Positions 80 through 37,629 of a stretch of 48,593 nucleotides of DNA are shown here, one piece after another. Location of the stretch: assembly GCF_000934845.1 (NCBI RefSeq), contig NZ_JXIQ01000111.1, positions 1-48,593 on the forward strand, in the 5' to 3' direction. Under the pieces are notes generated by a model that was given only the letters and a program-made list of their open reading frames with translations, ran no database searches and was not told where the DNA came from. The stretch is from Mesobacillus subterraneus. GTDB lineage: Bacteria; Bacillota; Bacilli; Bacillales; Cytobacillaceae. Positions within the stretch are counted from its first letter, which is position 1, and each line of letters begins with the position of its first letter. The position numbers and the translations under genes are program-made.

Positions 80-225
80 TTAAAGAGTTGTGAAATTTCT
101 AGCGCATTTTCGAGAAATTGTTGGGAAAATGACAAAAAAATCTCTTTCCTTTATCACATCGTTACAAAGATTTAGACTAATATGAAAGTAATGGTTTGTA
201 TAAAAAACATAACGGAGGGGAAAGT

Positions 226-2286
226 ATGTCATCGATTAGTCAGGTTAAAACCGTTTGTGGTTATTGCGGTACAGGTTGTGGACTGATTTTGGAGGTGGAA
301 GATAATAAGATTGTTAAAATCAGAGGAGATAAAGAGGCGCCTGTTAACAAAGGGCAAACTTGTGTGAAAGGGGCTTTTGCCTATCAATATGTTCATTCAC
401 CTAAAAGATTGGATACACCGTTGATTCGAAAAGCAGGCGAGCTTGTTAAGGTAACATGGGAAGAAGCATATGAGTATATCGCTAGCCATTTAACGTCGAT
501 TAAAGATCGATTTGGCCCAGAAGCCATCTCTATGTTTGCTTGTGCAAGGACTACTAACGAATCTAATTATGTTACCCAAAAATTCATGAGAACAGCTATC
601 GGCAGCAATAATATTGATGGCTGTAACCGAACCTGACACGCTCCAAGTGTCGCCGGTCTGGCGACTGTTTTTGGCAGTGGTTTCCCTACCAATACTTTAG
701 AAGATATCGATGAGGCTGAGGTTTTATTGCTAATGGGTTCAAATACGACTGAAGCTCATCCAATCATTGGGAATAAAATGAAGAAGGCCGCCAAAAATGG
801 ACTTAAAATCGTGGTTATTGATCCTAGAAGAATTGATATGGTCAAATCCGCACATAAACATTTACAAATTAAGGTTGGTACAGACATTGCCTTAATCAAT
901 GCGCTGATCCGGATTATCATAACTGAAAATTTATTCGACCCGGATTTCATCGGTAAGAACACGGAAGAGTTTGATGCTCTGCTGGAAAAAGTCAATAGGT
1001 ATACCCCTGAATATGCAGCAGAAATCACGGGATTAAAGGCAGAAGACATCATCGAAGTGGCACGTCTGTATGCTGTGTCAAATCGTTCGATGATTGCCTA
1101 TACACTTGGGATCACCGAGCACCACTGTGGTGTAAACAATGTATTTGATATCGCAAATCTGGCATTGTTGACAGGACATATTGGGAAGAAAGGAGCAGGT
1201 ATCATGCCTCTTCGCGGACAAAATAATGTCCAGGGTGCAGGTGATATGGGGTGCCTGCCTAATCAGCTTCCAGGTGCAGTCAGTTTGCTGGATCAGGAAT
1301 ACCGGGCACGATTTGAGGCAGCGTGGGAAACAGAAATCAGCCAAAAAATTGGTGATACCCAAACAAGGGCATTGGATAAAATGGAAACTGGAGAGGTTAA
1401 AGCTTTATACTGCATTGGTGAGAATCCATTGGTAGCAGATGTCCACATGAATCATACAAGGAGATTATTAGAAAAACTCGATTTACTTATTGTCCAGGAT
1501 ATTTTCCTGACCGAAACGGCTGAAATGGCTGATGTGGTGCTCCCTGCGAAATCATGGGGAGAGGTTGATGGAACTTATACAAATACGGACCGCAGAATCC
1601 AGCGGGTCCGAACAGCAGTTAAGGCACAGTCTGGTGTAAAAGAAGATTGGGAGATATTATCAGAACTGTCTACGAAGATGGGCTATCAAATGAGTTATCA
1701 TTCCAGTAAAGAGATTTGGAATGAAGTAAGAGAACTTGCATGGGAGATGTACGGCGGAATTTCCTACGAACGTTTGGAAGAGGAATATGGGGTACATTAT
1801 CCATGCCCTAATGAAAATCATCCTGGTACGAAAATCATGCATGAGCGATTTTATGCTGGAACAGACAACAGCGAACGCTCAAGTTTTGTTCCTGTTGACT
1901 TCACGCCGCCGCTGGAAACCCCAGATGAAGACTATCCTTTTACACTGACAACAGGCAGACGTTATGAGTCGTATAATACCAATACCCAAACTCGTTATTA
2001 CGCACCTGGTGTAAAAATAAAACAAACAGAAGAAACATTGGATCTCCATCCTGAAGACGCTTTGCGGTTATCAATGGTCGATGGTCAACTCGTTCGAGTA
2101 ACTTCTCGGAGAGGCACACTTGTTGTAAAAGTGAAAATAACGGAACAAGTAGTCCCTGGACTTGTGTTTATGAGCTTCCATTGGTCGGAGGTACCTACCA
2201 ATGTGCTAACTTTGAATGAATTTGATCCAATCTCTGGAACAGCAGAATTTAAAGCATGTGCGGTTAAAATCGAAAACATTACCTGA
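226..2286 (+). CDS. fdhF: Selenocysteine-containing formate dehydrogenase, catalytic subunit (TGA 634-636 read as Sec137)
   Basis: Molybdenum bis-MGD enzyme oxidising formate to CO2; 686 residues if the TGA at 634-636 is read as selenocysteine. An N-terminal [4Fe-4S] motif has Cys11, Cys14, Cys18 and Cys46, followed by CVKG with the conserved Lys48. The TGA lies in NNIDGCNRT-U-HAPSVAGL, the position of the catalytic Sec-His pair of E. coli FdhF, and the frame continues intact for another 549 codons of molybdopterin-oxidoreductase sequence. The ATG at 226 is chosen because GGAGGGG sits just upstream; an in-frame TTG at 196 has no such site. Unlike the second formate dehydrogenase (8967-11924) it lacks the N-terminal ferredoxin domains, so its electron acceptor is unknown. 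No partner subunit is adjacent. Automated annotation would probably split it into two ORFs or call it a pseudogene. Confidence 0.93.
634..665 (+). promoter_or_regulatory. UGA selenocysteine codon and bacterial SECIS hairpin of fdhF
   Basis: After the TGA at 634-636 there are 12 nt and then a perfect 6-bp stem, GTCGCC (649-654) and GGCGAC (660-665), closed by the loop GGTCT. The loop begins 18 nt after the UGA. This resembles the E. coli fdhF SECIS, whose apical loop contains GGUCU and is bound by the C-terminal domain of SelB. The bulged U of the E. coli element is not obvious here. Confidence 0.85.
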
Positions 2287-34220: not shown

Positions 34221-36107
34221 TTGAGCAAGAGGTATTTTACCATCGGGATGGCAGGGCATATTGATCACGGGAAAACGTCGTTGACCAAGGCGTTGACCAA
34301 TGTCGACACAGACCGACTGAAGGAAGAAAAGGAACGGCAAATTTCGATTGAGCTGGGTTTTGCGCCACTATATGAAGATGAAGAATTGCAAATTTCCGTA
34401 GTAGACGTACCCGGTCATGAGCGCTTTATCCGCCAGATGATTGCTGGTGTTGCAGGGATTGACCTTGTTGTTCTTGTTGTTGCAGCAGATGAAGGGGTTA
34501 TGCCGCAAACCCGTGAGCACCTGGACATTCTTGGGTTCCTGGGCATCCGTTCAGGAATTATAGCGATTACAAAAATTGACAGGGTGGAGGAAGACTTCAT
34601 CGAACTTGTGAAAGACGACATTCTTGGAGAGCTTAAAGATACGGTTTTTGAAAATGCGCCTTTTATGTTGGTTGATAGCCTTTCTAAAAAAGGAATTAGC
34701 GAATTGAAAGAAAGAATCATTGACACACTGAAAGAGCAAGAAATGCGGGACGTTAAGGGGGCATTCCGGCTGCCAATCGACCAGGTATTTACCGTAAAAG
34801 GCCAGGGCACTGTTGTTAGAGGCACGGTTTACGAGGGAACAGTCGAAGAAGGACAGCAATTAAGAGTCTTGCCAACGGGGCTCGAAGTAAGGGCTCGTCA
34901 GCTTCAGGTTCATCATCAGCCTGCCAAAAAAGCGTTCGCGGGTCAGCGGGCTGCCATTAATCTTTCCGGGATATCTAGGGATGAACTTGAACGGGGAGAA
35001 GTGCTAGTTTCATCTGAACATTTTATCGTTACCAACACAATAGATGTTGCAATAAGAGTGGTGGAGGATCTCGACCACCTGGTAAAACAAAGGACACCGA
35101 TTAAATGCCATATCGGTACTGCTGAAGTAATGGGACGGATTGTCTTTTTTGACCGAAACGAACTAAAAGAAGACAATGGGGAAATTCTTTGTCAGCTGCG
35201 TCTTGATGAAAAGATCGTCACTAAACGTGGAGATCGGTTCATTGTTCGCAGGCCAAGTCCGCAAGAGACGATCGGAGGCGGTTGGGTAATCGACCCGCGT
35301 GGAAACAAGTATCGTTTTGGCCAGCAGACAATGGAGGAGTTGGAAAAAAAGAAAGCAGGAACCCCAATCGAAAGAATGAACGCTGCCTTATATGAGGCAA
35401 AAAGCCTGACGATCGAAGAGCTTATTAAGCGGACAGCACTGGATGAGCAATCTATTTTAGCCAATCTTAAAGATGATCAGTTTGTCAAAATTTCTAATAA
35501 AGAATATGCCTTGACATCAGTCATTGACTTTATCGAAGAAGATATCAAAGATCGACTGGAAGACTATCACTCGGGAAATGCAATGCGTCCGGGCATGTAC
35601 AAAGCTGAATTGCTGCAAACTTTGCAAACAGCATTCTCGAGATCATTGCTGGAATTCATAATCGATAATGGTATTAGCAAGGGCTTATTTGTGAGAAAAG
35701 ACCAATATATCTCTCTTTCCGCATTTTCTCCACATGTCCCAAAAAGTTGGGAAAAACGGACAGAAACTCTGGTCAATGAACTGAAAAAGGACGGCTTGCA
35801 GGTGGCCTATTTGAATGATTATTTAAAAAAAGCAGGCATTCCTGACTCCATTTCCATAGAGTTAAAACGATTCTTGGAAGACCAGGGAGTAATTGTGATG
35901 CTAGATGACCAATATGCCTGGTATGGAGAACATTTTGCAGAAGCTGTCCGGAAGTTAAAAGACCATACAAAGGATGAATTTGAAGTTTCACAAGCCAAGG
36001 AAGCAGTAGAGTTATCACGTAAGTATTTGATTCCATTTCTTGAACGTCTCGATTCACTAGGATATACAAAAAGAATCGACAATAAGAGGATCTGGAAAAA
36101 GAAATAA
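34221..36107 (+). CDS. selB: Selenocysteine-specific translation elongation factor SelB
   Basis: 628 residues. GTPase that carries Sec-tRNA(Sec) to ribosomes paused at UGA next to a SECIS hairpin. The EF-Tu-like G domain is complete: GHIDHGKTSL (residues 12-21), DVPGHERFI, and ITKID. Beta-barrel domains follow (FTVKGQGTVVRGTVYEGTVEEGQ), then about 250 residues of winged-helix repeats that bind SECIS RNA. TTG start with AAGGTG about 8 nt upstream. No selA is adjacent on the 5' side, which is hutG. Its presence is strong support for reading the TGA codons at 634 and 36458-36460 as Sec. Confidence 0.96.
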   Translation: MSKRYFTIGMAGHIDHGKTSLTKALTNVDTDRLKEEKERQISIELGFAPLYEDEELQISVVDVPGHERFIRQMIAGVAGIDLVVLVVAADEGVMPQTREHLDILGFLGIRSGIIAITKIDRVEEDFIELVKDDILGELKDTVFENAPFMLVDSLSKKGISELKERIIDTLKEQEMRDVKGAFRLPIDQVFTVKGQGTVVRGTVYEGTVEEGQQLRVLPTGLEVRARQLQVHHQPAKKAFAGQRAAINLSGISRDELERGEVLVSSEHFIVTNTIDVAIRVVEDLDHLVKQRTPIKCHIGTAEVMGRIVFFDRNELKEDNGEILCQLRLDEKIVTKRGDRFIVRRPSPQETIGGGWVIDPRGNKYRFGQQTMEELEKKKAGTPIERMNAALYEAKSLTIEELIKRTALDEQSILANLKDDQFVKISNKEYALTSVIDFIEEDIKDRLEDYHSGNAMRPGMYKAELLQTLQTAFSRSLLEFIIDNGISKGLFVRKDQYISLSAFSPHVPKSWEKRTETLVNELKKDGLQVAYLNDYLKKAGIPDSISIELKRFLEDQGVIVMLDDQYAWYGEHFAEAVRKLKDHTKDEFEVSQAKEAVELSRKYLIPFLERLDSLGYTKRIDNKRIWKKK

Positions 36108-36214: not shown

Positions 36215-36544
36215 TTATTCTCCAAAAAAACCTTCATATACCTTCGAGACATCCGCCCTTAATTTTTCAACTTGGACGATCCTTGCCTCCCTAATATATT
36301 CTCTGCCATCTGCATACAGGACGAGAACAGGTACTGTGAACACCATTAGGAATCCAGCAATTTCGGTGACCTTCCCCGCATTAACCAGTCCTGTCTCGAT
36401 TTTAGGAAAATCTTTCAAAACATCCTCGACCTGAGGAAGCAATCCATGACAGACACTTCAACTATCGGTTAAAACGTAAATAAAACTTAATTCGTTTTCG
36501 TTGATCAACTTTGTAACCTCATCCATGGATGTTAATTCCTTCAT
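36215..36544 (-). CDS. Selenocysteine-containing thioredoxin-like protein (TGA 36458-36460 read as Sec29)
   Basis: Reads as 109 residues if the in-frame TGA is decoded. From an ATG at 36544 with AAGGAG 10 nt upstream, the frame gives MKELTSMDEVTKLINENE, FIYVLTDS, then U29-S-V-C32, then HGLLPQVEDVLKDFP and the thioredoxin-fold second half with the cis-Pro loop FTVPVLVLYADGREY. Sec thus takes the place of the first, nucleophilic Cys of a CxxC redox motif, exactly where selenium would be useful. The remaining 80 codons are open. A SECIS-like hairpin follows the TGA. The gene converges on selB. Likely a cytoplasmic thiol/selenol oxidoreductase; the partner is unknown. Without Sec it would be annotated only as a 75-80 residue fragment. 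Confidence 0.88.
36423..36460 (-). promoter_or_regulatory. UGA selenocysteine codon and SECIS-like hairpin of the thioredoxin-like gene
   Basis: On the minus strand, TCCTC-AGGTC-GAGGA (36437 down to 36423) forms a 5-bp stem with a 5-nt loop, extended by further pairs beyond one T-T mismatch. The loop begins 25 nt after the UGA. Its GGTC recalls the GGTCT loop of the fdhF hairpin. Confidence 0.68.
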
Positions 36545-36641
36545 CTGAAATAAACTCCTTTCTTTAAAATAGAATAGCCACTTGAACTTTTATCATACTA
36601 AAAAAAGGGGAAAGGGTATAATAATAAGGAGGAGTGATCGT

Positions 36642-37238
36642 ATGGGAAATACTTGGCATGAACGTTTTGGTTCAGACCAATATATTTATGGGGAAGAACC
36701 AAATCAATTTATCAGAGAACAGTTCCACAGACTGAAAAAGGGTAGCAGTATTGTCGCGTTTGCAGAAGGCGAAGGACGAAATGCAGTATTTATTGCGAGG
36801 CAGGGGCATCATGTTACAGCATATGATTATGCGGAAAATGGTTTGAGTAAAACTGAGGCGTTAGCAAAACGGTATGAGGTGAAATTGTCAACGGAGCTAA
36901 AGGATTTAACACGAGACTCAGTACCCGTTGAAGAATTTGAAGCAGCCTTTATGGTGTTTGGACATTTTAGTAAAAACGATCAAAAAAACGTGATCAACAA
37001 ATTGATTTCCACTGTCAAACCAGAGGGGATCATCATGTTTGAAGTATACTCAGAAGACCAAGTGAAATACGGTACAGGCGGACCAAAGTCCGTTGATATG
37101 CTTTATAACCCATTTGATGTATTGCAATGGATTAAGGACTATCATGTTCTTCATTTTTTTTATGGAGAGCAAGAAAGAGTAGAAGGAGAATTGCACAGGG
37201 GAACTGGTCATGTTATTCAGGTGATCATCAAGAAATAA
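36642..37238 (+). CDS. Class I SAM-dependent methyltransferase (TehB-like)
   Basis: 198 residues. SAM-binding motif I appears as IVAFAEGEGRNAVFIARQGHHVTAYDYAENG; the following strand ends in FEAAFMVFGHF. Start MGNTWHERFGSDQYIYGEEPN is typical of small methyltransferases annotated as tellurite-resistance-like. The substrate cannot be deduced; methylation of oxyanions (tellurite, selenite) is only a thought suggested by the neighbouring selenium genes. ATG 36642 follows AAGGAGGAGTGAT. Confidence 0.85.
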   Translation: MGNTWHERFGSDQYIYGEEPNQFIREQFHRLKKGSSIVAFAEGEGRNAVFIARQGHHVTAYDYAENGLSKTEALAKRYEVKLSTELKDLTRDSVPVEEFEAAFMVFGHFSKNDQKNVINKLISTVKPEGIIMFEVYSEDQVKYGTGGPKSVDMLYNPFDVLQWIKDYHVLHFFYGEQERVEGELHRGTGHVIQVIIKK

Positions 37239-37332: not shown

Positions 37333-37629
37333 TTAATGATGCTCCTTATAGTTTGTGAATATTTCACCATCAGTATCGCTGTATTTGATTTCTACTTCTG
37401 TATCATCAAAAAACCATGTGTCATTGGATTCAACATAAAAGGTTATTCCGTTCAGTTCCTGCTGTTCGGCAGCAACGGCTGGAGCTTCTAGCGAAAATGC
37501 TAAGCTGTAGCCTTTATTCTTGTCACCAAACCCTGCATATTGAGGATAAAGGCGGATGTGAAACGGTTTTGAAGTATCGAATTCTCTTTCAAACCATTTT
37601 AATGCTTCTTGATCAATTTTGATTGTCAT
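37333..37629 (-). CDS. HesB/YneR-like protein
   Basis: 98 residues of the HesB/YadR/YfhF family, YneR subgroup (IKIDQEALKWFEREFD, PFHIRLYPQYAGFG, YSLAFSLEAP, GITFYVESNDTWFFDD). Related to A-type Fe-S cluster carriers, but there is no Cys at all, so it cannot bind a cluster through the usual Cys ligands. Function unknown. Single gene, convergent with the methyltransferase. Confidence 0.82.
   Translation of the reverse strand: MTIKIDQEALKWFEREFDTSKPFHIRLYPQYAGFGDKNKGYSLAFSLEAPAVAAEQQELNGITFYVESNDTWFFDDTEVEIKYSDTDGEIFTNYKEHH

Follow-up and report, generated by a model that had tools for sequence, protein, structure and literature searches.

How should a TGA codon be read when it stands inside an otherwise open thioredoxin-like reading frame, at a position where related proteins carry cysteine? 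If it is taken as a stop, the active site of a thioredoxin-like protein would be lost. The question is raised by a locus in a 48,593-nucleotide stretch of Mesobacillus subterraneus DNA (contig NZ_JXIQ01000111.1; the whole stretch is hereafter called the window), for which a preliminary description had proposed a selenocysteine (Sec) thioredoxin encoded beside selB. The sequence comparisons described here point very strongly to a genuine selenoprotein in which Sec opens a CxxC-type motif. This reading rests on homology on both sides of the TGA, the pairing of Cys with Sec among homologues, a conserved hairpin, a full Sec pathway and the occurrence of selA in every TGA-form genome tested. The proposal of a Sec thioredoxin is therefore supported by the TGA aligned with Cys, the SECIS-like hairpin and the Sec pathway, as a prediction and for a thioredoxin-like protein rather than TrxA itself.

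The reading frame and its TGA among relatives

The gene lies exactly where the preliminary description had placed it, and the strand, which had been left unnamed, is the minus strand (Table 1). Read from the ATG at 36544-36542 to the TAA at 36217-36215, this strand holds one open frame with a single TGA; the plus strand holds several stops there. The TGA opens the motif U-S-V-C-H, with the 28 codons before it and the 80 after it that had been claimed, and the ribosome-binding site and cis-Pro loop of the same account were also found. The loop is T70-V71-P72, which we take to be the cis-Pro position by analogy with thioredoxin.

Table 1. Features at the thioredoxin-like locus and the second selenoprotein gene of the window (positions in the window).
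Feature	Position	Strand	Evidence
Predicted Sec-containing thioredoxin-like CDS, Sec at residue 29 of 109	36215..36544	-	Frame reading, homologues, purifying selection before and after the TGA
In-frame TGA, read as Sec, U29 of U29-S-V-C32	36458..36460	-	Conservation; TGC/TGT in Cys homologues
Ribosome-binding site AAAGGAG, 10 bases before the ATG	36555..36561	-	Sequence
SECIS-like hairpin: inner stem UCCUC/GAGGA, loop AGGUC, U-U mismatch, two outer pairs	36420..36440	-	Fold, conservation
selB, Sec-specific elongation factor; convergent with the selenoprotein gene	34221..36107	+	TIGR00475, 368.5 bits (cut-off 242.25)
TehB-like class I SAM methyltransferase, divergent	36642..37238	+	Pfam Methyltransf_25, 40.2 bits (cut-off 27); TehB, 22.8 bits (cut-off 20.4)
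fdhA, formate dehydrogenase alpha subunit; TGA at 634-636, hairpin loop GGUCU after the TGA	196-2286	+	

Relatives of the gene were sought at increasing taxonomic distance. The first search covered 61 genomes (the genome itself, 20 of the same genus, 16 more of the family and 24 of the order), of which 44 matched at E 0.001 and 32 had a close homologue (E <2e-20); 23 of these 32 carry the TGA and nine do not. Within the genus of the window the TGA form is present in all 21 genomes. A family profile search over 193 genomes at E 1e-12 matched 57, with the TGA in 50 and without it in seven. In an order sample of 397 genomes, 175 matched, and among the matches listed at least four genomes from three other families of the order carry the TGA (G564, G224, G540 and G501), a count that is a lower bound because forms weaker than about E 1e-31 may be missed. 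The phylum sample (398 genomes, E 1e-20) gave 23 matches and no TGA form outside the order; its two TGA forms are that of the window and that of a congener. A plasmid search returned 16 records with relatives, each below 60% identity. The weak matches of the first search (E >1e-6) stand outside the TGA counts, and some of them contain a TGA (G035, and second matches in G006, G009, G012 and G018). Two public records, filed under Chryseobacterium sp. ISL-80 (L037) and Pseudomonas sp. ISL-84 (L041), contain this Bacillaceae gene together with its surroundings, and their titles look wrong.

The position of the TGA is constant. In all 54 TGA-form genomes read in DNA (50 of the family and four outside it) it falls at residue 29 of the window protein, including one gene cut at a contig end (L094), for which the residue was placed by extension from the downstream part. 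The Cys homologues have TGC or TGT at this position. Such homologues aligning at residue 29 had been named beforehand as a check of the proposal, and they were found, with homology spanning both sides of the TGA. An alignment of 25 homologues, seven of them Cys forms with Cys at the TGA position, contains 12 invariant columns distributed on both sides, including Y23, V31, C32, P37 and P72; T70 is invariant as well. Between the window and 19 distinct congeners, pN/pS is 0.13 before the TGA (27 codons) and 0.12 after it, and over 52 distinct TGA forms it is 0.32 before and 0.24 after, values that are rough since pS is near saturation. The parts before and after the TGA both appear protein-coding and constrained.

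A tree of 79 distinct proteins places all 48 TGA forms, which span four families, on one side of a branch (support 92/89) with one change of state, and the 54 genomes are therefore not independent. This result is limited by the small number of columns and by several long branches; the tree omits L047-L070 (most of them the same genes as L007-L028), L094, L137-L141 and identical proteins. A simple point reversion from Sec to Cys was considered for the Cytobacillus-type genomes and rejected: their Cys forms (L080-L083) fall outside the TGA group, none of them being nested within it, and this favours replacement between lineages. Elsewhere, the locus L078 is a Cys form (TGC, codon at 1906) whose following bases resemble the hairpin core described below (CTGCCGCAGGTGGAGG), in a genome that has selA; this is possibly a recent change from Sec to Cys.

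A SECIS-like hairpin within the coding region

The hairpin that had been noted downstream of the TGA is confirmed, its loop AGGUC beginning 25 nt after the TGA. In all 54 TGA genomes a core pattern, CTNCCYCAGGTNGAGG, begins 18 bases downstream of the TGA. Among distinct 63-base sequences, the core occurs in 47 of 47 TGA forms and in none of 31 Cys forms, although the pattern was composed after inspection of the TGA forms and the signal follows in part from the protein, as Cys forms often lack the Gln and Glu residues concerned, so that only its synonymous part counts. This part also differs between the two groups. The Gln codon is CAG in 47/47 TGA forms and in 6 of the 16 Cys forms that have Gln, the first Glu codon is GAG in 47/47 against 4 of the 7 Cys forms with Glu there, and the Pro codon is CCT or CCC in 47/47 against 8/31. 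Furthermore, across 29 distinct TGA forms synonymous conservation is higher at the seven hairpin codons than at the remaining ones (p 0.0002 by permutation; the codons were picked after viewing the alignment, and relatedness is uncorrected). When the sequences were recoded synonymously at random, at most 5% of the recodings were equally stable for 37/47 TGA forms, as against 2/31 Cys forms. The loop is AGGU(C/U) in most TGA forms, with G at loop position 2 followed by another G, at 25 nt from the UGA. According to PMC13188914, the bacterial SECIS model has G in the first two loop positions and a loop lying 16-37 nt after the UGA, features that the hairpin core of the TGA forms displays. In one TGA form (L118, TGA at 1161) the motif reads U-S-V-G-R, with Gly in place of the resolving Cys and the hairpin core intact; it is either a variant without a resolving Cys or a case of early decay.

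Folding the window hairpin as a single sequence yielded no signal; the signal comes from the comparative tests. Taken alone, the hairpin of the window is not stabler than shuffled sequence (z -0.17, and -0.15 in a longer stretch). Codon 41 of the window gene is GAT, which produces the U-U mismatch in the stem, and GAT or GAC is found there in 4 of the 54 TGA forms, the window included. L035, one of two Cys forms folded, has a different and fairly stable hairpin (-10.4 kcal/mol), and the TGA form L030 reaches a z of only -0.84, so energy alone cannot tell TGA forms from Cys forms. No Rfam family matched in the window at the gathering score, a result that is not counted against a SECIS element in a coding region.

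With these comparisons at hand, other readings of the TGA can be weighed. The gene might be a pseudogene or the product of a sequencing error, in which a Cys codon has become a stop and the gene is decaying; TGC and TGT are one base away from TGA, and Cys forms do exist. However, a TGA that recurs at the same residue in 54/54 TGA-form genomes, with pN/pS of 0.12-0.13 against congeners on both sides of it and accompanied by a hairpin that 31 distinct Cys forms lack, leaves this reading practically no chance, and we reject it. We also reject, as extremely improbable, the view that the TGA is a working stop which ends a short leader peptide, a second protein being initiated independently further downstream. 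Candidate start codons do follow the TGA (e.g., Met67), but the Cys homologues form one continuous protein across the site, purifying selection acts before the TGA, and a downstream product would be left without two strands and a helix of the model and without the catalytic residue. A further possibility grants a real selenoprotein and holds that the U-U mismatch makes Sec insertion inefficient here, so that a truncated product dominates. In its favour, the window hairpin has a fold energy of -7.7 kcal/mol, compared with -11.5 kcal/mol for L008 and -12.7 kcal/mol for L023. Against it, the AGGU loop is intact, as are all five pairs of the inner stem, GAT or GAC stands at codon 41 in three other TGA forms, and purifying selection on the protein persists; it appears quite improbable. 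The selenoprotein reading, with Sec inserted at residue 29, is the one followed below.

The selenocysteine pathway and the neighbouring genes

Besides a tRNA-Sec (58 bits, cut-off 47, anticodon tca), the genome holds selA, selB and selD, and the Sec pathway is thus present. It also encodes other candidates for its use: five fdhA-type genes score over the family cut-off, two of them with one in-frame TGA each, and selD itself has one in-frame TGA. One of these two fdhA genes is the second selenoprotein gene inside the window, and the other lies elsewhere in the genome. The hairpins after the TGA of both fdhA genes and of selD have GGU within or beside the loop, and the stems of the two fdhA genes differ by a compensating change (GUCGCC/GGCGAC in one, GUCACC/GGUGAC in the other).

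The distribution of selA agrees with the distribution of the TGA. It scores over its cut-off in 54/54 TGA genomes (23/23 in the first search and 31/31 in the further genomes) as against 9 of the 17 Cys genomes tested (5/9 and 4/8), a contrast softened by the fact that selA is widespread in the group, being found in 48 of the 61 genomes, 20 of which have no close homologue of either form. selB is over its cut-off in 22 of 23 TGA genomes, the exception being G010, a genome that is 66% complete. In a TGA-form genome of the same genus, selA is in two overlapping pieces (G015:C1:1845480-1846866), which reflects either a frameshift or a sequencing error.

The preliminary description had placed the gene beside its dedicated elongation factor. 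The product of the adjoining gene has SelB winged-helix Pfam domains, and the first part of the claim stands for the window and its genus, where 20 of 21 genomes have a convergent selB on the same contig, at a distance of about 0.1 to 2.6 kb (in G010, the sole exception, no selB over the cut-off was found). It does not extend to the Cytobacillus-type loci, as no selB lies within 5 kb at any of the seven with 5 kb flanks (L040-L046); the tally comprises the genus genomes and these seven loci, the flanks of the other loci being too short. Since the adjacency is confined to the genus, and two fdhA genes and selD would likewise be served by SelB, the word dedicated carries little functional weight.

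On its other side lies the divergent gene of the TehB-like methyltransferase; no conserved neighbour is found more often beside the TGA form. It is present in 41 of 54 TGA genomes and at none of 35 Cys loci (which correspond to 31 distinct sequences, one locus being short-flanked); counted by locus, with some genomes entering twice and L047-L070 excluded, it is found at 49 of 62 TGA loci. It was not seen in the remaining 13 TGA genomes, one of which lacks the upstream flank and which include all four outside the family. The methyltransferase falls in no NCBIfam family, its best scores being 57.4 bits for MduS (cut-off 380) and 33.8 for TehB (cut-off 303). Beyond it, at 37333-37629 on the minus strand, lies a gene for a small protein without Cys that matches Fe-S_biosyn (HesB/IscA-like) weakly, at 21.8 bits and under the cut-off of 26.3.

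The methyltransferase neighbour suggests a possible role of the selenoprotein in chalcogen chemistry, and its conservation makes a thiol- or chalcogen-related compound the foremost substrate candidate. The adjacency could mean that the two genes share a role in the chemistry of sulfur, selenium or tellurium; kinship alone could also account for it. A more specific proposal is that the two proteins process selenium or tellurium compounds jointly, with reduction falling to the Sec-thioredoxin and methylation to the methyltransferase. The occurrence of the neighbour in 41/54 TGA genomes against 0/35 Cys loci and the TehB Pfam matches over the cut-off argue for it, but the 13 genomes in which the neighbour is unseen, all four outside the family among them, the confounding of adjacency with kinship and the absence of a fitting NCBIfam family argue against it, and we consider it unlikely. 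Decidedly unlikely, in our estimate, is the broader idea of a subfamily, possibly of one origin and present in four families of one order, that has kept its dependence on Sec while the protein family around it uses Cys, and that works with the divergent methyltransferase as a pair for handling selenium or tellurium; if it were true, selenium would build the enzyme that handles excess chalcogen.

Protein family, proposed mechanism and relation to known selenoproteins

With U given as C, the window protein scores 24.1 bits against Pfam Thioredoxin (PF00085), a thin margin over the cut-off of 23.5, and a whole-genome search with the same model listed five other proteins over the cut-off and not this gene. 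Canonical TrxA models are missed by far (TIGR01068, 23.6 bits against a cut-off of 96.8; NF047697, 28.6 against 140). In NCBIfam only two families matched at E 0.001, both of them thioredoxins below their cut-offs, and no named selenoprotein family was over its cut-off. The best AlphaFold2 model, built with 10 sequences, has a pLDDT of 80.8 and a pTM of 0.74, the other four models ranging from 67.2 to 47.7. In this model two strands and a helix precede the TGA, and the active-site residues 26-36 are coil of middling confidence. The best 50 Foldseek hits in the PDB are mostly thioredoxins, with TM-scores by query length of 0.59-0.77. A thioredoxin fold is thus supported by modelling in which only the best of five models is of good confidence. 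The canonical TrxA motif is W-C-G-P-C. The window protein shares the fold class and the cis-Pro position with TrxA (TIGR01068) but lacks this motif, and as judged from its sequence it is a thioredoxin-like protein, not a canonical TrxA.

For the selenoprotein reading, the following course of events is proposed. Translation would start at the ATG at 36544, and a ribosome arriving at the TGA (36460-36458) would encounter the hairpin at 36440-36420. SelB carrying Sec-tRNA-Sec would bind the AGGU loop, so that Sec would be inserted without termination and a thioredoxin-fold protein of 109 residues would be made. In the product, Sec29 would attack a substrate that may be a disulfide or may carry sulfur or selenium in another oxidised form, and the selenenyl-sulfide would be resolved by Cys32, a mechanism taken from other UxxC thioredoxin-like proteins of the superfamily. 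We infer that decoding takes place in the cell, that the protein is catalytic, that electrons flow towards the substrate, as in a reductase, and what the substrate may be.

Sec-containing thioredoxins of the UxxC type are known, and the window protein looks like an unlisted subfamily by its sequence. A Sec-containing UxxC bacterial thioredoxin assigned to PF00085 is given in tables of PMC9312934 and PMC13188914, with WP_010956703.1 as the example. From the description in these tables, it shares with the window protein the thioredoxin family (PF00085) and a Sec that comes first in UxxC; the window protein differs in its weak fit to the general models and in having S-V between U and C. The HUIPC-motif (NF047660) and SaoT (NF040730) proteins, listed in PMC13188914, are also thioredoxin-like with UxxC, but neither is among the NCBIfam models that hit the window protein at E 0.001. 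PMC13188914 contains no word starting with 'Bacill', and the two mentions of 'Bacillus' in PMC9312934 concern a selenite reductase and its reference. A table of PMC1794560 counts three selenoprotein families in Bacillales, so an earlier mention of this subfamily is possible. Passages in PMC2398784, PMC5029168 and PMC1088965 were also covered. Among the titles and abstracts listed in literature searches, in a collection with few subscription journals, none concerns the subfamily.

The gene would add a genus-wide selenoprotein to the Bacillaceae, of a kind that the searched passages of the reviews do not name. In addition, close relatives, some with selA and some without, carry either the Sec or the Cys form of one small protein, which offers a natural comparison of what Sec buys and bears on how Sec and Cys lineages replace one another. 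A hairpin within a coding region that leaves its mark on synonymous sites also provides a small, self-contained element on which SelB from this group could be tested.

Among solved structures, the one closest in sequence is 4euy (BCE_0499 of Bacillus cereus ATCC 10987), a thioredoxin-like Cys form on which we found no literature under either BCE_0499 or 4EUY. Its match to the profile covers positions 1-100 of 108 and reaches 99.8 bits, its match to the window protein reaches 53 bits, and it has C-G-V-C where the window protein has U-S-V-C.
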